Position numbers and translations under genes: made by a program | Notes under the pieces: generated by a model | What the model saw: only the letters and a program-made list of their open reading frames with translations | The model's database searches: none | What the model was told of the DNA's origin: nothing | Assembly (NCBI GenBank): GCA_913060865.1 | Contig: CAJXTU010000001.1 | Location: 248,001-312,000 of the forward strand | DNA length: 64,000 nucleotides | Reading direction: 5' to 3' | Source: an uncultured Cycloclasticus sp. | Lineage (GTDB): Bacteria; Pseudomonadota; Gammaproteobacteria; Methylococcales; Cycloclasticaceae | Shown here: positions 11,609 to 49,659 of the stretch, piece after piece | Layout of the letters: each line of letters opens with the position of its first letter | Position numbering within the stretch: position 1 is the stretch's first letter

Positions 11609-13774
11609 TTAATTTGAAACCTTGATTTGACCTTTTTTCAAGGCTTCTAACACTTTGTCTTTAGGGCCATCGGCCATAATTTTAGAGCCGTCCATAACGA
11701 TCAAGCGGTCCACTAAGGTTAATAAAGAGGCGCGATGAGTGACTAGAATAAGGGTTTGTGTGCCGAGTTGTTCCGCTAACTTTTGTTTGAACCGTTCTTC
11801 CGTGCTGTTATCCATCGAATTGCTGGGCTCATCCATAATGTAGATGGGTGGAGAAAGCAGCAAAGATCTTGCAACAGCAACGCTCTGCCGCTGTCCGCCA
11901 GATAAAGAAGCGCCACGTTCACCAACGGGCATATCAAAGCCTTCGGGGTGGCGGTTCACAAATTGAGTGACGCCAGCGACTTCGGCAGCGTGCAAAATAG
12001 AGGCGTCGTCAGCATAGCGTGAGCCGAGCGTGATATTGTCTTTAACGCTACCAAACATCAGTGAAATATCTTGTGGCACATAGCCTATTTGTCGGCGAAG
12101 GTCGGAGGGGTCGATCTGTCTAATATCAGTACCATCAATAAGAATAGAGCCTTCTTGTGGCTCATACATGCCTAGCATGAGTTTCTCAATGGTGCTTTTA
12201 CCGGAGCCGATACGTCCAATGAATGCAACCCGCTCGCCAGCTTTGATTTTGAATGAAATATTGTCAAGCGCCTTAACCGGCTGTTCTGGGTAGTTAAATG
12301 AAATGCCCTTAAATTCAATATCGCCTTTAAAGGTTGGACGGTGTAAGTACTTTTTGCCCGGCTCACGTTCCACGGGTAACGACATCATATTGGTTAACGT
12401 GTCCAGCGATGTGCGAGCCTGATGGTAGCGGGTTAATAAAGAAGCGACTTGCCCGATAGGTGCTAGTGCGCGTCCCGTTAAAATAGTGCAGGCAATTAAG
12501 CCACCGGTTGTTAGATTACCTTCAGATATTTTATAAACTCCAAAAATAACCACTGAAATGGATGCCATTTGCGTTAAAAAGGCGGTTAAATTGACGGCAA
12601 TAGACGAATAAAAACGTGACTTAAGACCTAGGCGAGAAATATGACCAATATTTTGTTCCCATTTGCTTTGCATTTGGCCTTCTGCGCCGGCGCTTTTAAT
12701 GGAGCTTAAATTGCTGAGGGATTCAATCAGTGTTGCGCCTTTTTGAGCTGAATGCTTAAAGAGCTCATTGATCGTGTTCTTTAGCGGTTTTTGAACGATG
12801 ACACCGCCTAATATAGCCAGTGGCAAAACAACCAAGGGGACGAGTGCCAAGTCCCCGCCGATCATGTAAATGACGGCCAGAAAGATAAATAGGAAAGGCA
12901 GGTCGATCAGCGTGGTGAGCGTCGCTGAGGTGAGAAAATCTCTAAAGGATTCGAATTCGCTTAAATTGTTGGCAAAGGCACCGACAGATTTAGGTCGGTT
13001 TTCCATTTTAATGCCCATGACTTTTTCAAAAATCGTGGCAGATAGAATCACATCAGATCGTTTGCCTGCGACGTCAATAAAGTAACCGCGTAAGCCCTTC
13101 ATGACGAAATCAAAGGTAAAAACAATTGTGACACCAATCGCTAGCACCCAGAGTGTTTCCAGCGCATGGTTTGGTACGACTCGATCGTATACATTCATTA
13201 TAAATAGTGGAGACGCAAGGGCGAACAAGTTGATGAGCAAGGAGGCCGCTAATACTTCGCCGTAAATAGGCCAAGATTTAAAAATGACATCCCAAAACCA
13301 ATGTTTTGCTTTAGGGATGGCGGAGTCAGCAGTTTGGTCATTAAACGTATGGTTGATTTGAATAAAGAAGGCCGAGCCGCTGTAAATTTCTTCTATAACA
13401 TTCAGGTGGACGGTTTTCTCGCCGCTGTCGGTTTCCGGCAAAATAAGCGTGCACGTACCATCTTGCTGCTTGGACACTAACACGCAGGTTTTGTTGTCCT
13501 TCAATAACAAAACAGCCGGCAACACTAAGTTAGAAATTTCAGCCAAAGGGCGGCGGACTAAACCGGTAGAAAAACCCGCGCGCTGGGCGGCTCTAATAAA
13601 TAGAGACGGTGTTAGCTTATTGTTGACCAGCGGTAATCCAGAGGTTAAAGAATCAGCCGAATGAGGAGAGTTCAATAGCTTGCACACAGATAGAAGCGCC
13701 AATAACAAAGGATCATCTTGGCTTGTCATCGTAGAGATGTTTTCGGTCGTTTCTTTTAGCACAGCAGCGGTCAT
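11609..13774 (-). CDS. lapB: type I secretion system permease/ATPase (LapB family)
   Basis: ABC exporter that drives secretion of the adhesin. Domains in order: a C39-like domain (about residues 20-145) without the catalytic Cys, so it should bind the substrate but not cut it; a six-helix transmembrane domain (about 165-445); and a nucleotide-binding domain with Walker A GRIGSGKST near residue 518, the signature LSGGQRQSVAVARSLL, Walker B IYIMDEPS and the H-loop THR. Length of 721 residues is usual for the LapB/LssB/BapA-exporter group. First gene of the leftward lapB-lapC-luxR-tolC cluster; the divergent gene at 13897 shares its upstream region of about 120 bp. Confidence 0.93.
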   Translation of the reverse strand: MTAAVLKETTENISTMTSQDDPLLLALLSVCKLLNSPHSADSLTSGLPLVNNKLTPSLFIRAAQRAGFSTGLVRRPLAEISNLVLPAVLLLKDNKTCVLVSKQQDGTCTLILPETDSGEKTVHLNVIEEIYSGSAFFIQINHTFNDQTADSAIPKAKHWFWDVIFKSWPIYGEVLAASLLINLFALASPLFIMNVYDRVVPNHALETLWVLAIGVTIVFTFDFVMKGLRGYFIDVAGKRSDVILSATIFEKVMGIKMENRPKSVGAFANNLSEFESFRDFLTSATLTTLIDLPFLFIFLAVIYMIGGDLALVPLVVLPLAILGGVIVQKPLKNTINELFKHSAQKGATLIESLSNLSSIKSAGAEGQMQSKWEQNIGHISRLGLKSRFYSSIAVNLTAFLTQMASISVVIFGVYKISEGNLTTGGLIACTILTGRALAPIGQVASLLTRYHQARTSLDTLTNMMSLPVEREPGKKYLHRPTFKGDIEFKGISFNYPEQPVKALDNISFKIKAGERVAFIGRIGSGKSTIEKLMLGMYEPQEGSILIDGTDIRQIDPSDLRRQIGYVPQDISLMFGSVKDNITLGSRYADDASILHAAEVAGVTQFVNRHPEGFDMPVGERGASLSGGQRQSVAVARSLLLSPPIYIMDEPSNSMDNSTEERFKQKLAEQLGTQTLILVTHRASLLTLVDRLIVMDGSKIMADGPKDKVLEALKKGQIKVSN

Positions 13775-13896
13775 TATTTATCCATTTGTGTATAAAACTA
13801 AAGCGCCAACATCTTGTTGTGTGCAGTAAGTTTGATTATTGTTTTTTATTTAGTGATACTAGAACAAATTAAGGAAAATGCAAATGGAGCTGAGAT

Positions 13897-14235
13897 ATGC
13901 CTTACGTTAACCGCAATTCTGAAGGTAAAATCATTAAATTGTTGGATGCGCCGTCCGGCTCTGACAGTGAATGGTTAGAGCTAGGTCAAGTGGAAGTGAT
14001 GGAGTTTTTGCAGAAGCTAAATAATAAGGTTGAATTAAAGGAATCCTTGCTCAGCTCTGATGGTGAAATGGTGCGCGTAGTTGAGGATTTGGTAGATATG
14101 TTGATGGAAAAACAGGTATTCGTTTTTACTGAATTGCCTGAAGCAGTACAGGATAAACTCAATAAGCGAAAAAAGTTGCGTCACGATGTTAATGCTTTAA
14201 GTAACTTGATTGGAGATGATGATAATGTTTTGTAG
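13897..14235 (+). CDS. conserved hypothetical protein beside the type I exporter
   Basis: A 112-residue soluble, acidic protein starting MPYVNRNSEGKII and ending in a DDD tail. It resembles a small family in gammaproteobacteria that carries the misleading label 'tryptophan synthase subunit beta like protein'. The conserved parts are the N-terminal MPYV.R...GKI, a EWLELGQVEVMEFL segment, a MVRVVEDLVDMLMEKQVFVFTELPEAVQ centre, and a KLR...NAL tail. There is no tryptophan synthase domain. It is divergent from lapB. The function is unknown; a role in the adhesion module is suggested only by position. Confidence 0.7.
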   Translation: MPYVNRNSEGKIIKLLDAPSGSDSEWLELGQVEVMEFLQKLNNKVELKESLLSSDGEMVRVVEDLVDMLMEKQVFVFTELPEAVQDKLNKRKKLRHDVNALSNLIGDDDNVL

Positions 14236-14337
14236 TTTCAAAGAAATTAAAATTAATACTAATACCTTTGTACAGTAGTTAAATTTTAAATCCCTGCTAG
14301 ACTTTAATTCAATGAACTCCTTTATGCAGAAAAGGCG

Positions 14338-14742
14338 ATGATTGACATATTAATAGTCGAAGAAAAAGATCAAATTCAAAGGGCTTGCTCACAGCTTGGT
14401 CCTAGGGTGTCTGTATGCGATAGCGAAATGATTGCACTAAGCATATTGAGTGAGCTCTCATCGCCAATTGTATTACTGAATCATAATGTGATGAAAAACG
14501 GCACACCAGAATATATAAAGATGTTATTTGGTGCGTGTTCAAGCTGCAAAATCATTGTGATTGGAGATGCGTTGAGTGAAAAAGAAATATTGAGTTGTTT
14601 ATTGGTTGGTGCAAGAGGCTATCAGCAATTGGACCAATTACAGAAATACTCTAGTAGGTTAGTAGAGGCAGTGGATACAGGTGAGGCCTGGATAACAAGG
14701 CGAATGACGGCCTTATTACTTGATACATTGCGAAACTGTTAG
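14338..14742 (+). CDS. receiver-like protein lacking an output domain
   Basis: A 134-residue protein with the alternating pattern of a response-regulator receiver (MIDILIVEEKDQIQ, IVLLNHNVM, KIIVIGD, LLVGARGYQQL). Its end, AWITRRMTALLLDTLRNC, lines up with the receiver-HTH linker of the LuxR protein at 9636-10265 (TWIQRHLVPRVIDTL), but the reading frame stops there and no helix-turn-helix follows. The phospho-acceptor position reads LLNHNVM, again without a clear Asp. It may be a stand-alone partner of that regulator or a truncated duplicate. It lies between the small conserved gene and the adhesin gene on the same strand. Confidence 0.6.
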   Translation: MIDILIVEEKDQIQRACSQLGPRVSVCDSEMIALSILSELSSPIVLLNHNVMKNGTPEYIKMLFGACSSCKIIVIGDALSEKEILSCLLVGARGYQQLDQLQKYSSRLVEAVDTGEAWITRRMTALLLDTLRNC

Positions 14743-41847: not shown

Positions 41848-42273
41848 ATGGACGTAAGAATTAAATGGGTTGAAGGTGCTATGTTTCTTGGTGAATCAGG
41901 TAGCGGACATACCGTTGTGATGGATGGTGCGCCTGAGAATGGCGGTAGAAATTTAGGCCTTCGCCCGATGGAAATGTTGTTAACTGGCATGGGCGGTTGT
42001 ACCGCGTTTGATGTGAAAATGATATTAGATAAAGCACGTCAAAATGTGACCGATTGTGTGGCAGAAATACAGGCAGAACGTGCTGATACGGTACCGGCCG
42101 TATTCACTAAAATTCACGTGCATTTTATTATTTCAGGCAAAGGCTTAACCGATAAAGCAGTGGCTCGTGCGGTGAACCTTTCAGCCGAGAAATACTGCTC
42201 TGCCTCCATCATGCTAAGTAAAGCCGTAGACATTACGCATGATTATGAAATAGTGGATGTTGACGCTCAATGA
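41848..42273 (+). CDS. OsmC/Ohr family protein (YhfA-like)
   Basis: A 141-residue protein of the OsmC superfamily, thiol-dependent peroxide-reducing proteins. Two conserved Cys are present: Cys51 in GGCTAFDV and Cys117 in EKYCSASIM, the latter typical of the YhfA branch found next to crp/vfr genes. Ribosome site AAGGTG lies before the ATG. Its stop overlaps the start of the VOC gene (ATGA), showing a two-gene operon. Confidence 0.88.
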   Translation: MDVRIKWVEGAMFLGESGSGHTVVMDGAPENGGRNLGLRPMEMLLTGMGGCTAFDVKMILDKARQNVTDCVAEIQAERADTVPAVFTKIHVHFIISGKGLTDKAVARAVNLSAEKYCSASIMLSKAVDITHDYEIVDVDAQ

Positions 42274-42662
42274 AGCGTCCTAACCCAACAACAGGCTTAA
42301 GGCATGTGGCGCTGAATGTGCAAAACCTCGCGAAGGCCGAGCACTTCTACGTAGAACTAATGGGTATGACGATTGAATGGAGACCCGATCCTGACAATGT
42401 ATACCTCACCTCAGGCAATGATAATTTAGCCTTGCACGTTGTAACGGGTGAAGAAAAGGGTGTTCCGAAACTAGACCACATCGGTTTTTTTCTAGACCGC
42501 GAAGAAGATGTAGATGATTGGTTTGAGTTTTTAAAGCATCACGGCATTAAAATGAAAACCCAGCCGAGAAAACACCGCGATGGTGCAAAAAGTTTTTATT
42601 GCTATGACCCAGATGGCATTACAGTACAAATTATTTGTCATCCGCCGTTGGTTGGGAAGTAG
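42270..42662 (+). CDS. VOC (glyoxalase/dioxygenase) superfamily protein
   Basis: A 130-residue metal-site protein with paired beta-alpha-beta-beta-beta modules: GLRHVALNVQNLAKAEHFYVELMGM at the N-terminus and KLDHIGFFL...FYCYDPDGITVQIIC at the C-terminus. His13, and the Asp-His/Glu region near 70-75, could bind the metal; substrate unknown. It is coupled to the OsmC gene. Its last eight codons are duplicated at 43123-43146 (see repeats). Confidence 0.82.
   Translation: MKRPNPTTGLRHVALNVQNLAKAEHFYVELMGMTIEWRPDPDNVYLTSGNDNLALHVVTGEEKGVPKLDHIGFFLDREEDVDDWFEFLKHHGIKMKTQPRKHRDGAKSFYCYDPDGITVQIICHPPLVGK
42639..42662 (+). repeat. 24-bp direct repeat, left copy (end of VOC gene)
   Basis: CATCCGCCGTTGGTTGGGAAGTAG, the last seven sense codons and stop of the VOC gene. 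It recurs with one mismatch (23/24) in the same orientation at 43123-43146. The two copies bracket the mazF segment. Confidence 0.9.
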
Positions 42663-42756
42663 CGTTTTACTAAGAGGTATTTAAAGTGACAGTTTTTGCG
42701 TAAGCAAAACAAGTGACGTTTTAAAATGTCCGTTGAACTTACTGGTTAGCTCAACT

Positions 42757-43080
42757 TTAATATGTGAATAACTCCTGTAGTGTATTGCATAACGCTACTT
42801 GAGTTTTCTCATCAATTGAGCCTAGTTTTTTTATTAACCTCGATTTATCAACAGCTCTCACTTGATCTAAAAGTATCAATCCGTTTTTATTTTTAAATTG
42901 ACACTTAACTCTGCAAGGGAAGTTAAAACCCTGGGTGGTCATGGGTGCAACGAGTACAGTTGATAATGCAGATATTTCATTTGGAGAGATGACAACGCAA
43001 GGTCTTGTTTCGTTTATTTCTTTCCCTTTAGTTGGATTTAAGCTGACGAGCCAAACCTGAAATCGGGTAACGGGTGACAT
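42757..43080 (-). CDS. mazF: MazF/PemK family mRNA interferase toxin
   Basis: A 107-residue ribonuclease toxin that cleaves mRNA. The start is the ATG that overlaps the stop of the antitoxin remnant (TAATG). Family features are VWLVSLNPTKGKEINETRPCVVIS with the catalytic Arg26, the VLVAPMTTQ strand with Thr48/Thr49, and LLDQVRAVDKSRLIKKLG. No inactivating change is visible. The expected antitoxin gene upstream is truncated, leaving only its last codons, so this toxin appears to be without its own antitoxin. It lies between two copies of a direct repeat derived from the VOC gene. Confidence 0.88.
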   Translation of the reverse strand: MSPVTRFQVWLVSLNPTKGKEINETRPCVVISPNEISALSTVLVAPMTTQGFNFPCRVKCQFKNKNGLILLDQVRAVDKSRLIKKLGSIDEKTQVALCNTLQELFTY

Positions 43081-43253
43081 TACCACTCTAGGTTTTCATC
43101 TGAGGTTAATGCTGCATCTAGCCATCCGCCGTTGGTTGGGAGGTAGTCGGGCCAGTATAGGTTTAACGTTGTCGCTGAAAAGTGCGCAGTGCTTTCGGCG
43201 TACCTTGTACTTAGCGCTTCATAAAAGCTTGATTCAATGATTTGTTGGCCTGG
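43080..43253 (-). pseudogene. truncated antitoxin (MazE/PemI-like) remnant
   Basis: An open frame runs into mazF with the typical TAATG overlap. Its last 13 residues (LDAALTSDENLEW) are acidic and end in a Trp, like an antitoxin tail. Upstream of 43122 the frame crosses the second copy of the VOC-derived repeat, so those codons are not original antitoxin sequence. The frame has no ATG, GTG or TTG before the in-frame stop at 43254-43256. The DNA-binding N-terminal half of an antitoxin is missing. Confidence 0.6.
43123..43146 (+). repeat. 24-bp direct repeat, right copy
   Basis: CATCCGCCGTTGGTTGGGAGGTAG, a near copy of the end of the VOC gene 484 bp to the left. The similarity stops abruptly on both sides. 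The pair looks like a duplicated target or recombination end at the boundary of inserted DNA. Confidence 0.88.
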
Positions 43254-43576
43254 TTAAGTGTAGGACTGATTATTTAGTATTAGGCTCCATGGTTCGCATA
43301 CGCTCATGAATTACGTATGTGCATAGGCTCAGCTGTTTAGCAATCTTAAAACAATGATTGTTTAAAGGTGTTAAGTATTGGCCTCACAGATTTATTAAGC
43401 GACTCAAGCTTGCCCGGTTACGCTGTTAGTCACCTAGTAGAAAAGCTAGAGAATAACTCATCCACGCCTTTAAGTTCATGCCGTGTTGGAACGCTGTGTA
43501 TGCCTTGCAATCAATTGAGCAATGCCTGATGATTTGACTACCGGGGCAAATAAATTAGTAAAGGTTATTATTCAAC
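43147..43576. other. 430-bp region without a recognisable gene
   Basis: Apart from the non-original part of the antitoxin frame (to 43253) I see no supported gene. The short rightward frame at 43522-43764 overlaps the RND adaptor start in another phase and is not credible. The stretch could be a decayed remnant of the insertion or the promoter region of the RND pair; a weak AAAGG lies 12 bases before the adaptor start. Confidence 0.4.
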
Positions 43577-44947
43577 ATGAAAATAAATTTAAAGCATTAT
43601 TTCTCACTGTTTATAGCGATCGCCTTGGCGCTTATTTTAGCCATTATATTGGTAAAATTGAAACCAACGATTCAGCACGTGGCAACCGAAATGCCGAGCA
43701 AAGCAGTGGAAATCATTACGGCAAAAAGCATTCCATTTCGTGCTCGTCTTACCGCTTATGGTAATGTCAAACCTGCCATCACGTTAAACAGTATGGCTGA
43801 GGTGAGTGGGGAAATTAGTTATGTGCACCCCAACCTAAAAGCGGGCGAAAAGATTCTTGCCGATACCGTGGTCGTGCGAATTGATGCCAAAGACTATGCA
43901 AGCACATTGATACAGACCGAAGCCGATCTCTCTGGCAGTCGTTCTGCTTTAAAGGAGTTAGAGGAGGAAGAAAAATCCACGCGACGCTCGCTAAAACTAG
44001 CAAAAAGTAATCTCAGGGTGGGAGAAGCTGAATATGCTCGAATTAGGAGTGGCTATGAAAAAGAAGCGATTAGTAAGTCTGCACTGGATACAGAGGAGCA
44101 AAAAGTAATACAACTAAAACAACAGGTAGAAGAGTTACAGGGCAAGATAAACGGTTTTGATAGTCGTGGACAATCTATTAAAGCGCAAATTGCTCGCGCA
44201 GAACAGGAAGTACAAAACCGGGAAACTATTCTTGGTCGCACCGAAATATCCTTGCCTTTTGATGCTCGCATCGGGACGGTTAATATTGATAGGAACGAGT
44301 TTGTGGCTATCGGTTCACCACTGTTTGAGGCGATTGATCTTAAAGGTGTCGAAATTACCGCGCAGTTACCGATCGATTCCATGCGAAAACTGGTAAGTCA
44401 CTTAGAAGGCACTATTAAAATCAATAAGTTGCCCCCTCGGACCGGCGGAGGCATTAATGATCGCCTGAAACTCAGTGCGAAAGTTCGACTCGTGAACGGC
44501 ATGCCCAGTGCTGTCTGGAAAGCCCGCGTGTTACGCATCAGTGACTCCATTGATCCCATTCGTCAGACCATGGGCATCGTTGTCGGGGTAGAGGATTCTT
44601 ACGATAAAAGGATTCCCGGCAAAAGGCCCCCTCTTATCAAAGGCATGCATACCTCCATCGATATTTTTGCACCAGAACACCCCGCGCTGGTGATACCACG
44701 TAAAGCCTTGCATCAGGGACGAGTGTATATCGTTGATGCTGATAACCGGCTTGAAATTCGCTCAGTCGATATCCAGTTGATGCAAGGCGACCTTGTTGTT
44801 ATTAGCGGCGGAATCGAACCAGGCGAGAAAGTCATCATTACCGACCTTATTCCCGTCATCGAAGGCATGCCTTTGCAAATGATTGCTAACCCTGATTTTG
44901 AAAAGGATATGTATCAACGTGCCCTTGGCGAAGATGTGGGAGCGTAA
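43577..44947 (+). CDS. RND efflux periplasmic adaptor subunit
   Basis: Membrane-fusion protein of 456 residues for the RND pump encoded next. One N-terminal helix (about 8-27) anchors it. The lipoyl-like halves (VSGEISYVHPNLKAGEKILADTVVVRID near 75-102 and RTEISLPFDARIGTVNIDRNEFVAIGSPLF near 222-252) flank a long coiled-coil hairpin (about 105-215). Family length and order are complete. Codon use is more G+C-rich than in neighbouring genes (many CTG, GCC, ACC), a possible sign of transfer. Four bases separate it from the permease gene. No outer-membrane partner is in the pair. Confidence 0.9.
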   Translation: MKINLKHYFSLFIAIALALILAIILVKLKPTIQHVATEMPSKAVEIITAKSIPFRARLTAYGNVKPAITLNSMAEVSGEISYVHPNLKAGEKILADTVVVRIDAKDYASTLIQTEADLSGSRSALKELEEEEKSTRRSLKLAKSNLRVGEAEYARIRSGYEKEAISKSALDTEEQKVIQLKQQVEELQGKINGFDSRGQSIKAQIARAEQEVQNRETILGRTEISLPFDARIGTVNIDRNEFVAIGSPLFEAIDLKGVEITAQLPIDSMRKLVSHLEGTIKINKLPPRTGGGINDRLKLSAKVRLVNGMPSAVWKARVLRISDSIDPIRQTMGIVVGVEDSYDKRIPGKRPPLIKGMHTSIDIFAPEHPALVIPRKALHQGRVYIVDADNRLEIRSVDIQLMQGDLVVISGGIEPGEKVIITDLIPVIEGMPLQMIANPDFEKDMYQRALGEDVGA

Positions 44948-44951
44948 ATAA

Positions 44952-47900
44952 ATGATTCGTTATTTTGCGGCTCACCCTACTGCCGCCAACATTCTGATGT
45001 TTATTATTGTATTGCTGGGCATCACCTCGCTACCCAATCTAAATAAGGAAACCTTTCCAGACATAGATGCTTATAGAGTACAAGTAAGCGTACCCTACCC
45101 TGGAGCCAGTACCAGCGAAGTCGAAGAAGGCATCTGTAATCGACTAGAAGACAGCACCGATGGCATCAGTTTTCTTGAAGAGCGACGTTGCGAAGCGCGG
45201 GACAATATCGGCACCATGGTATTGGATATGCAAGAAACCGGTGACCTGCAGCAATTCATTAATGATGTGAATTCTGCTGTTGATGCCATCACTGATTTTC
45301 CGGAAGATGCAGAGGACCCGATTATAAAAGAATTGGGGCGTACCAGACCCGTCGTTAGTGTTGCGATTAATGCCGACCTGTCACAGCCCGAACTTAAAGC
45401 ACTGGCGGAATATTATCGCGAGCGTTTATTGGCATTACCGCAAGTACCTATGGTCGATGTCAGCGGTTTTTCTACTCATGAATTCAGTGTGCTCATCAAG
45501 GCAGAATCGCTACACCGTTATCGGTTAAGTATTCAGGATATCGCTAATTTAATTCAACAACAGGCGGTCGATTTACCTGCAGGCATACTGGAAGCAGAGT
45601 TACGCTCTTACCAAATCCGTATCGAAAATGAACGTCGCAGTGTAGAAGAGCTTGCCGACTTAGTAATACTCAATGACGACAAAGGTGGGCGTATACGATT
45701 AGGCGACATCGCAACCATCGTCGATGAATTTACCGATGAGGAAGTACGTGTTGAACTTAATGGCCGGCCCGCTGCCCTGCTCAAAGTAAGTAAAAACACC
45801 AGTGATGATACGTTAACCGTGTATAACGCTGTGAACGATTTTGTAACGGCCGAAAATGCGATGTTACCGGAGTCTACCCGACTGGTCATCACGCAAGATT
45901 CTGCCGCTATTGTGCAGGATCGCCTTAGCTTATTACTTAGAAATGGCTGGCAGGGGCTGTTACTTGCCACCATCACGCTGTTCGTTTTTTTTAGTTGGCG
46001 CTATACCTTCTGGTTAGCACTGGGATTACCCATCTCCTTTATTGGTGGGCTCATGGTAATGAGTGTTGTGGGTATTAGCATTAATATGATATCCATGGTC
46101 GCCCTGCTTATGGCCATCGGCATCCTCATGGATGATGCCATCGTCATCTCTGAAAGCATTGAGCAGGAATACCGTCATGGTCAATCACCATTACAGGCAA
46201 CGGTGGACGGCATCGCTAAAGTTGGCCGTGGTGTTCTATCGTCTTTTGCCACCTCCGCGATGTTGTTTGGTAGCTTGTTGTTTCTAAAAGGTGACATGGG
46301 GCAAGTGATGGGCGTATTACCCGTCGTGTTACTCTCGGTACTCACCATTAGCTTGGTAGAAGCCTTTTTAATTCTGCCCCACCACTTAAAATGTTCACTG
46401 GAAAAACATCAAGATCAATTTAAAACCACCGACACAAAAAACTGGCGTCACACATTTGAACAAAAATTTGATCGGCTACGTAACGCCGTCGGTAAACTGG
46501 CAGACACAGCGATTCAATACCGTTACCTGACGGTGGGAATGGCTGTCGGTTTACTCATTATTACTCTCAGCCTGTTTCCTGCTGGCCTAATTAAATTTAA
46601 GGCTTTCCCCGACCTCGAAGGTAATCTACTAGAGGCGCGTATCCTTATGCCGCAAGGTACTCCCTTCGATCGTACTGAAGCGGTGGTTGCAGAATTACTG
46701 GCTAGCCTGCAACGGACAAAGAGTGAGCTCCCCCCGGAAGATGGTGCAGAGCTTATCAAACACATTCAGGTTTTCTATAGCAACAATGCCGATGCGGGTG
46801 AAGAAGGTGCGCATCTTGCCACCATCAGTCTGGATTTGCTTGATTCTGAAACACGTCACACCTCCTTAAATGAATTACGCCGCCTATGGCGACAATCGAC
46901 CCCTCCAATTGCAGATGCTATTTCTATCCAGTACAAGGAACCCAAGTTAGGGCCGGCTGGTCAAGCTATTTCCATCCGTTTGCAAGGCAATGATCTGCAA
47001 CAACTATCCAAAGCCTCTTGGGAACTTCAAACCTGGCTTAATGGTTACCCCGGCGTATCTAACGTTATGGATGATCTTCGTCCGGGAAAACCTCAGTTCA
47101 CCGTCAGCCTGCACCCAGGATCATTGGTCTCCGGTCTTAACGCACAACAACTGGCGCAACAGTTACGCGCAGCCTATCAGGGTGTAAAAGTAGATGATGT
47201 GTATCAGGGACGTGAAGCCTATGAAATCAATGTCAAACTAAAAACAGATCGAAAAAATGCCCTGAAAGATTTTGAACAACTCAGTTTGTTCAATAACAAG
47301 GGCGTTGATATTCCGTTAAGCGCAATCGCCGAGGTCAGCGATAAACGCGAGTTTTCCAAAATCATTCGTATCAATCATCAGCGCACGGTTACTATCTCAG
47401 GCGACATTGATGCCGCTATTGCAAACACCAATGAAATAATCAACGACACGCGCAAACGTTTCCTTAGTGAACTGCAACAACGCTACCCGGACATATATAT
47501 CAGTTTGGAAGGTGAAGTAAAAAACAGCCAAGAAACCAATAGCTCGGTACTCATCGGTTTTATTCTAGGGATTAGTGGTGTGTATTTTTTACTCAGTTTT
47601 CAGTTCAGAAATTACCTCGAACCGCTAGTTGTGTTAATGAACATTCCATTGGCATTGATCGGCGTTGTTTGGGGGCATAAACTGATGGGGCTAGATATCA
47701 CTATGCCCAGCATGATCGGTTTTGTTTCTCTAGCGGGTATCGTGGTGAATGATTCTATTTTATTAGTCGAATACGTAAAACGCAGAAGTCGTGAAGGCAT
47801 GCCGTTGCATGAAGCCGCAGGTCAGGCCGTACGTGATAGGTTCCGTGCTATTTTTCTCACCTCGATCACCACCATCGCAGGTATGTTACCGCTATTATCA

Positions 47901-48089
47901 GAAACCAGTCTGCAAGCACAGGTACTCATACCATTAGTCGCCAGTGTGGTGTTCGGTATGATCTCATCAACCATTCTACTGTTATTGGTATTACCTGCAG
48001 CGTACGCGATCATGGAAGATTTAGGCGTGCGAGAAATAGAAGAAGACGAGTTGGTGACGGCTAATAATAAACTCACTGACTCAGCGTAA
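44952..48089 (+). CDS. RND efflux transporter permease (AcrB family)
   Basis: Proton-driven inner-membrane pump of 1045 residues with twelve helices and two large periplasmic loops. It begins MIRYFAAHPTAANILMFIIVLLG and has the helix-4 motif MAIGILMDDAIVISESIE with the paired Asp needed for proton transfer. The Lys of AcrB helix 10 is replaced in GIVVNDSILLVEYVKRR, as in several non-AcrB subgroups, so drug specificity should not be assumed. It shares the higher G+C codon use of the adaptor gene. The pair interrupts a block (OsmC, coq7) often found close together, which supports later insertion. Confidence 0.92.
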   Translation: MIRYFAAHPTAANILMFIIVLLGITSLPNLNKETFPDIDAYRVQVSVPYPGASTSEVEEGICNRLEDSTDGISFLEERRCEARDNIGTMVLDMQETGDLQQFINDVNSAVDAITDFPEDAEDPIIKELGRTRPVVSVAINADLSQPELKALAEYYRERLLALPQVPMVDVSGFSTHEFSVLIKAESLHRYRLSIQDIANLIQQQAVDLPAGILEAELRSYQIRIENERRSVEELADLVILNDDKGGRIRLGDIATIVDEFTDEEVRVELNGRPAALLKVSKNTSDDTLTVYNAVNDFVTAENAMLPESTRLVITQDSAAIVQDRLSLLLRNGWQGLLLATITLFVFFSWRYTFWLALGLPISFIGGLMVMSVVGISINMISMVALLMAIGILMDDAIVISESIEQEYRHGQSPLQATVDGIAKVGRGVLSSFATSAMLFGSLLFLKGDMGQVMGVLPVVLLSVLTISLVEAFLILPHHLKCSLEKHQDQFKTTDTKNWRHTFEQKFDRLRNAVGKLADTAIQYRYLTVGMAVGLLIITLSLFPAGLIKFKAFPDLEGNLLEARILMPQGTPFDRTEAVVAELLASLQRTKSELPPEDGAELIKHIQVFYSNNADAGEEGAHLATISLDLLDSETRHTSLNELRRLWRQSTPPIADAISIQYKEPKLGPAGQAISIRLQGNDLQQLSKASWELQTWLNGYPGVSNVMDDLRPGKPQFTVSLHPGSLVSGLNAQQLAQQLRAAYQGVKVDDVYQGREAYEINVKLKTDRKNALKDFEQLSLFNNKGVDIPLSAIAEVSDKREFSKIIRINHQRTVTISGDIDAAIANTNEIINDTRKRFLSELQQRYPDIYISLEGEVKNSQETNSSVLIGFILGISGVYFLLSFQFRNYLEPLVVLMNIPLALIGVVWGHKLMGLDITMPSMIGFVSLAGIVVNDSILLVEYVKRRSREGMPLHEAAGQAVRDRFRAIFLTSITTIAGMLPLLSETSLQAQVLIPLVASVVFGMISSTILLLLVLPAAYAIMEDLGVREIEEDELVTANNKLTDSA

Positions 48090-48357: not shown

Positions 48358-49659
48358 TTAGGGCGAAGTCTCAGTAATTTCTGATACGACCTGCTTTATG
48401 GCAGACGTGACACGAGACAAGTCCGCTGGTTCAATGATATACGGCGGCATTACGTACACTAAATTAGAGAAGGGGCGAACCCAAACGCCCAGTTCAACAA
48501 AGCGCGGTTGCATCCAATGTATGTCAAGGGCTTGGTGTAATTCAATGACGCCAATGGCGCCTTTAACGCGAACATCTTTAACCGATGTAAATGTTCGGCA
48601 AATAGACAACTCGGTAATGAGTTGTTGTTCGATTTGATTAACGTTTTCCTGCCAGGGTGAATTGAGTAATAGGTCTAGGCTGGCATTGGCTACCGCGCAA
48701 GCTAATGGGTTAGCCATAAAGGTTGGGCCATGCATTAAGGTGGGGTGTTGCCCGTCACCAATGCCATTGGCGACTTTGCTGGAACATAGTGTTGCGGCTA
48801 GGCTCAAATATCCGCCGGTTAGGGCTTTACCTACGCATAAAATATCGGGGGCAATATGGGCTTGTTCGTAGGCGAATAGTGTTCCCGTCCGTCCAAACCC
48901 AGTCGCTATTTCATCCAAAATCAACAGTACGTTATAGTCTGTACACAATTCACGTACTTTTTTAAGATAAGCAGCGCTGTAAAACCGCATACCGCCTGCA
49001 CCTTGAACGAGGGGTTCAATGATCACGGCTGCAATGGCGCCTACATTGTTTTTTAATAAATGCTCAAAGTCATCAATAGCGGTTTGATCGTATGTTGTTT
49101 GGCCTGAGCAGTTAGGGCTTTGTGCAAATAAATGCTGAGCCAGAACGTTACTAAACAAATGGTGCATGCCGTTATCGGGGTCGCAAACGGCCATCGCGCC
49201 AAAGGTATCGCCGTGATAACCATTTTTGATGGTGAGCAAGCGTTGTTTTTGGGGTTGGCCTTGAGAGGCCCAATACTGAATAGCCATTTTGATGGCGACT
49301 TCAACGGCTACCGAGCCAGAATCGGCAAAGAATACGTGTTGTAAATCATCGTGGGTGATGTTGATCAGCTTTTTTGCTAGGTCAACAGCAGGCTTGTGTG
49401 TTAAGCCACCAAACATAACGTGCGACATGGATTTAAGTTGGTTCTCAATCGCAGCATTTAAGGCAGGATGGTTGTAGCCATGAATGGCGGCCCACCAAGA
49501 AGACATGCCATCAATCAGTTCGCGCCCATCTTCCAGCGTTAAACGTACGCCAGAGGCTGACTTTACCGGGAAAACGGGTGTTGGGTGGTTTAGGCTCGTA
49601 TAAGGGTGCCAAAGGTGTTGTTGGTCAAACGTAACGAGGGCGTCCCAGTTATTACTCAT
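48358..49659 (-). CDS. bioA: adenosylmethionine-8-amino-7-oxononanoate transaminase
   Basis: Biotin-pathway PLP enzyme, 433 residues, that makes DAPA from KAPA with S-adenosylmethionine as amino donor. The N-terminal HLWHPYTSLNHP, GRELIDGMSSWWAAIHGYNHP, ITIKNGYHGDTFGAM-like segment, LILDEIATGFGRTG and the PLP lysine in CVGKALTGGYLSLAATL are all present. No other bio gene is in the window. Six bases separate its start from the coq7 stop on the same strand, so the two may be cotranscribed. Confidence 0.94.
   Translation of the reverse strand: MSNNWDALVTFDQQHLWHPYTSLNHPTPVFPVKSASGVRLTLEDGRELIDGMSSWWAAIHGYNHPALNAAIENQLKSMSHVMFGGLTHKPAVDLAKKLINITHDDLQHVFFADSGSVAVEVAIKMAIQYWASQGQPQKQRLLTIKNGYHGDTFGAMAVCDPDNGMHHLFSNVLAQHLFAQSPNCSGQTTYDQTAIDDFEHLLKNNVGAIAAVIIEPLVQGAGGMRFYSAAYLKKVRELCTDYNVLLILDEIATGFGRTGTLFAYEQAHIAPDILCVGKALTGGYLSLAATLCSSKVANGIGDGQHPTLMHGPTFMANPLACAVANASLDLLLNSPWQENVNQIEQQLITELSICRTFTSVKDVRVKGAIGVIELHQALDIHWMQPRFVELGVWVRPFSNLVYVMPPYIIEPADLSRVTSAIKQVVSEITETSP

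Follow-up and report, generated by a model that had tools for sequence, protein, structure and literature searches.

The VOC–bioA interval and its insert

The insert described here lies directly behind a VOC (glyoxalase-fold) gene in the window, i.e. the whole 64-kb stretch of DNA that was analysed. The genes and features of this region, in their order along the window, are the following:

42270–42662, plus strand: VOC gene, intact, 130 aa (PF00903, E 5e-21)
42639–42662, plus strand: repeat copy R1, the final 24 bp of the VOC gene itself; its outer edge is the attC crossover junction
42663–42751, minus strand: decayed attC of a mazEF cassette, immediately following mazF; base 42663 is complementary to the crossover G
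42757–43080, minus strand: mazF-type toxin gene, 107 aa from its ATG, frame intact, with the substitution K24E (PF02452, E 2.8e-27)
43080–43124, minus strand: mazE remnant, comprising the last 13 codons, a straddling W codon and the TAA stop, without a usable start
43123–43146, plus strand: repeat copy R2, duplicating the VOC 3' end, with 2–3 bp in common with mazE at its inner edge
43147–43576, no strand given: sequence native to the VOC–RND allele, homologous to the post-VOC sequence in G001
43577–48089, plus strand: RND adaptor and pump genes; G001 has RND genes in the same place between VOC and bioA
48358–49659, minus strand: bioA, the far border of the variable VOC–bioA interval, placed by synteny

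The gene order in the genus is osmC, VOC, then bioA and coq7 on the opposite strand, with close orthologues of the VOC gene in 14 of the 17 other genus members, and it is the content between VOC and bioA that varies. The two genes adjoin in G015 and G011. G001 is the nearest relative across most of this region; there, an RND adaptor gene follows 170 bp after VOC and the cassette is absent. The post-VOC spacer of G001 aligns with the window sequence after R2 with a local score of 46 (at most 37 in 500 shuffles), as opposed to 16 with the sequence after R1, so that G001 provides what an earlier note on this DNA had asked for, namely a relative in which VOC runs directly into sequence resembling that beyond 43146. 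G003, considered as a further empty-site comparison, was dropped, its RND genes being in another place.

R1 and R2 are identical at 23 of 24 positions and 484 bp apart, exactly as the earlier note had reported. The best other match to R1 within the window reaches 16/24, and a genome-wide search with its first 19 bases, allowing up to two mismatches, returned R1 and R2 with no third copy; the uniqueness of the pair thus rules out a chance origin. The 460-bp insert unit was itself found in a single copy, and no second copy of the 24-bp repeat was found in the relatives searched. As for mazEF, the 460 bp between the repeats contain mazF intact but, of its antitoxin gene, no more than the last 13–14 codons. 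The frame that had been called an intact-looking mazF is indeed one: its match to the PemK/MazF family extends over 100 residues, far above the cut-off, and the protein also matched 23 solved MazF/PemK-type sequences.

The mazE remnant reads LDAALTSDENLEW before its stop (13 codons), with a W codon across the boundary, and its frame ends in TAATG, the base A at 43080 being common to the mazF start. The full antitoxins of close relatives are AbrB/MazE-type proteins of 84 aa that end in EWLDAVLTSDEDLEW and likewise show the TAATG overlap with mazF. The 13 codons and the TAATG had already been recognized, together with an antitoxin break placed exactly at 43122/43123; this edge is in fact fuzzy by 2–3 bp, since CAT at 43123–43125 fits both mazE and the repeat, and the W codon straddles it. 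More specifically, the mazF-strand sequence across the joint is GGATGGCTAG, with 2–3 bases in common with full mazE genes, which at the equivalent point read GAGTGGCTAG in G011 and GAATGGCTAG in OFTM61. A non-ATG antitoxin start had been considered too, but the 57-codon remnant frame, which runs on through the repeat, contains no ATG, GTG or TTG. A search of the genome turned up no further relative of MazE and no complete cognate mazE.

An integron cassette at a recurrent place

The sequence directly behind mazF is related to integron recombination sites. A strict attC regular expression run over the window gave mostly noise, and homology to attC sites of known arrays was used instead. The window attC core (42663–42748) is identical at 69 of 88 positions, in a global alignment, to an attC of the integron array of G016, scoring 113, while none of 2000 shuffles exceeded 48; positions 42679–42748 match contig C218 of this genome with an E-value of 7e-14, at 2–3 kb from the G016 integron integrase. 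The homology stops at the CG that precedes the integrase crossover, where the array goes on with TTAGC and the window with the reverse complement of the VOC end, so that beyond the crossover G the R' box is replaced by the VOC end. The R1 edge and the attC crossover, which were located independently, coincide at 42662/42663, and this outer edge is more important than the edge at R2 that the earlier note had stressed. The window attC hairpin folds no better than shuffles on either strand (z +0.4), while its G016 counterpart does (z −5.7).

The nearest mazEF (90% protein identity) is that of G011, where it forms a complete cassette among attC-bounded cassettes carrying other small toxin–antitoxin genes; the mazF genes of relatives likewise have attC-like sites behind them. 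The insert, for its part, is not a complete crossover-to-crossover cassette, its 5' side being truncated inside mazE. Integron integrases above the curated cut-off are present in 13 of the 18 genus genomes, including the source genome, which carries an intact integron integrase, together with an array, on a different contig. The lone mazF is what remains, in a decaying state, of the end of an integron gene cassette which originally held toxin and antitoxin together.

Sister species show what such a cassette could have belonged to. The VOC–bioA intervals of G007, G008 and G013 (loci L115, L118 and L117) contain an attI-like site (scores of 58, 90 and 75, respectively, versus shuffle maxima near 36), with no integrase gene beside it; the corresponding scores in the window's own interval, 25–27, are within the range of shuffles. 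In all three genomes, the cassettes read toward VOC, i.e. in the same inverted orientation as the window mazF: in G007 there is a single BrnTA cassette, the attC of which folds well (z −4.4), in G008 a row of small genes with attC-like sites between them, and in G013 a single gene of 235 aa with its terminal CG at a distance of one base from the VOC stop. The orientation and the position of the window mazF are those of the last cassette in such an array. Altogether, the insert is a terminal integron cassette that has been truncated, at a place where cassettes recur; it is ordinary in kind and no new type of element, yet informative. We tentatively propose, as an idea that may well prove wrong, that the VOC–bioA interval serves the genus repeatedly as a second docking place for cassettes, where an integrase-less attI-like site is served remotely by the chromosomal integrase, and where the last cassette can be trapped as a hybrid joint at allele exchange, leaving antitoxin-less toxins behind. 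The use of an attI-like site without an adjoining integrase at one chromosomal place in several species means that remote action of the integrase can be put to the test.

Two known arrangements of cassettes come close to this one. The toxin–antitoxin cassettes of sedentary chromosomal integrons, of the Vibrio cholerae type (PMC11023631), consist of a small operon with its own upstream region that ends in an attC, and the G011 array holds a full relative of the window mazEF; the window itself has only the toxin, the attC and an antitoxin stub, outside any integrase-adjoined array. Integrase-less cassette clusters (CALIN) and cassettes at attG sites (PMC12444791, PMC12901181) are alike in having attC cassettes without an adjoining integrase gene, but the sister-species copies additionally keep an attI-like site, and the window has just one truncated stub, fused to an RND locus.

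Two of the arrays examined have features of their own. In the source genome (L114, G000:C5, 6362–17000), the 344-aa integrase is followed by a first cassette that is class D beta-lactamase-like and then by several toxin–antitoxin-like cassettes; within this array, a reverse transcriptase that is split into two frames at 13564–14681 could be a broken group II intron. The array on contig C22 of G011 (L129) includes four cassettes with near-identical short ORFs (VVNRTRVHINTRRPRTAEL...).

Origin of the insert

Most likely, the mazF insert is a leftover from an imprecise joining of two versions of this chromosomal site. We favor, with a probability of roughly 0.55, an illegitimate exchange that joined an array allele to an RND allele, R2 being the VOC end of the latter. 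In the ancestral array, an attI and its cassettes would have lain between bioA and VOC without an adjoining integrase, as in the sister species today, and the integrase crossover (42662/42663) would have been the point where the last attC met the VOC stop codon. The exchange would then have connected the array allele, at a point inside mazE, to the RND allele (VOC–RND–bioA) at a point 24 bp before its VOC stop, using 2–3 bp of common sequence (ATG on the mazF strand). Both VOC ends would have been kept, that of the array allele as R1 and that of the RND allele as R2, and what remains of the cassette would be its VOC-proximal end, namely the 3' tip of mazE, mazF and the attC. A possible vehicle is DNA taken up by the cell, recombining homologously at one end and illegitimately at the other: homology-anchored illegitimate joining occurs at DNA uptake, and a long homologous side together with a 2–3 bp joint would yield the pattern seen in the window.

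The hybrid joint would explain the repeat, its single mismatch and the RND spacer after R2, and, among explanations restricted to alleles observed in the genus, it is the simplest. The evidence for it comprises the attC homology, the G011 cassette, the integrases, the arrays of the sister species, the RND allele of G001, the lack of a second mazE and the relaxed state of mazF. Since no strain with a full mazEF cassette at VOC–bioA was found among the genus genomes, the array allele is deduced from other species; neither parental allele was found in the source species, and the window's interval has not retained an attI. The VOC end of G001 matches R2 at only 19 of 24 positions, which would require a closer, unsampled relative as the donor of the RND allele. 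In the VOC gene tree, the G001 gene groups with those of G005/G014 (100/99), in contrast to the adjacent genes trpC, crp and bioA, and was probably itself exchanged (L153/L152). An import of VOC into the source genome, at first considered on the basis of a mosaic test, was dropped; the strongly supported outlier being G001, the gene trees do not show such an import. The suggestion in the earlier note that the locus is an insertion or recombination end thus holds insofar as it is recombination debris, with the antitoxin cut at R2 and the toxin frame kept; what had been missed is the integron cassette, the attC crossover at R1 and the sister arrays.

The insertion of a cassette at genomic attG sites is documented (PMC12444791, PMC12901181), which opens a somewhat unlikely alternative: an off-target, attG-type integrase reaction would have placed a single mazEF cassette into the VOC stop codon of a VOC–RND chromosome, after which copying at the joint, or a later template switch to the empty sister chromosome, would have deleted most of mazE and duplicated 24 bp of VOC. 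The coincidence of the attC edge with the VOC stop and the integrase of the source genome fit this scenario, and so would the minimal integrase target motif, reported to be GNT (PMC10127599), if the base after VOC had once been C, as in G001 (G-CT); the base after R2 is now T, however, giving A-CT. Moreover, integrase insertion alone gives no 24-bp duplication, and the attI–cassette arrays at VOC–bioA in three sister species make a separate single insertion unneeded. Transposition of a mazF-carrying element with a 24-bp target site duplication would likewise account for direct repeats bounding the insert, but it is very improbable and was rejected: neither a transposase gene nor a terminal inverted repeat was found at the insert, whose ORFs besides mazF are short, one of its edges lies inside the mazE frame and the other at the attC crossover, and 24 bp is unusually long for a target site duplication. 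The repeat makes more sense as the VOC end contributed by a second allele at a hybrid joint.

State of the mazF gene

By joining the two alleles, the exchange would have deprived mazF of both the cassette promoter and the antitoxin. Promoter-like matches upstream of mazF are no more numerous than in shuffles. Where a column is conserved in 90% or more of the relatives compared (up to 62), the sole departure is K24E: column 24 is K in 60 of 62 relatives and lies two residues ahead of the invariant arginine of the RP motif, which is kept, as are the other invariant positions. Changes specific to the window mazF comprise nine nonsynonymous and six synonymous ones, versus six and 28 in two intact cassettes (Fisher p 0.006). 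On the grounds of this ratio, of K24E and of the shuffle-level promoter matches, the most fitting view of mazF is that of a toxin relic without a promoter and under relaxed constraint, probably little expressed and drifting.

The family, the conserved residues and the gene overlap of the window toxin are those of MazEF/PemIK type II systems; these have a cognate antitoxin, which is absent beside the window mazF. The C-terminal part of other MazE proteins contacts the toxin, and the remnant corresponds to that part. It is conceivable, although improbable, that the orphan toxin still works and is kept for a function such as regulated RNA cleavage, possibly checked by a short C-terminal antitoxin peptide made from the remnant frame. 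The mazF frame is indeed still open after 15 lineage-specific changes; yet the remnant frame lacks any ATG, GTG or TTG start, and both the shuffle-level promoter matches and the signs of relaxed constraint, including a substitution so close to the invariant arginine, argue against a working toxin.

Toxin–antitoxin cassettes are thought to stabilise integron arrays via the killing of cells that lose them. The window offers a natural case of a toxin that has survived the loss of its antitoxin and shows signs of relaxed constraint, and the insert would be a readable relic of genome shuffling. Note that three mazF cassettes (L046, L041 and the window, at 42745–42756) are alike up to the R'' box of the attC (TTGAGCTAAC) and have unrelated attC bodies behind it, which look as if the attC sites had been swapped.
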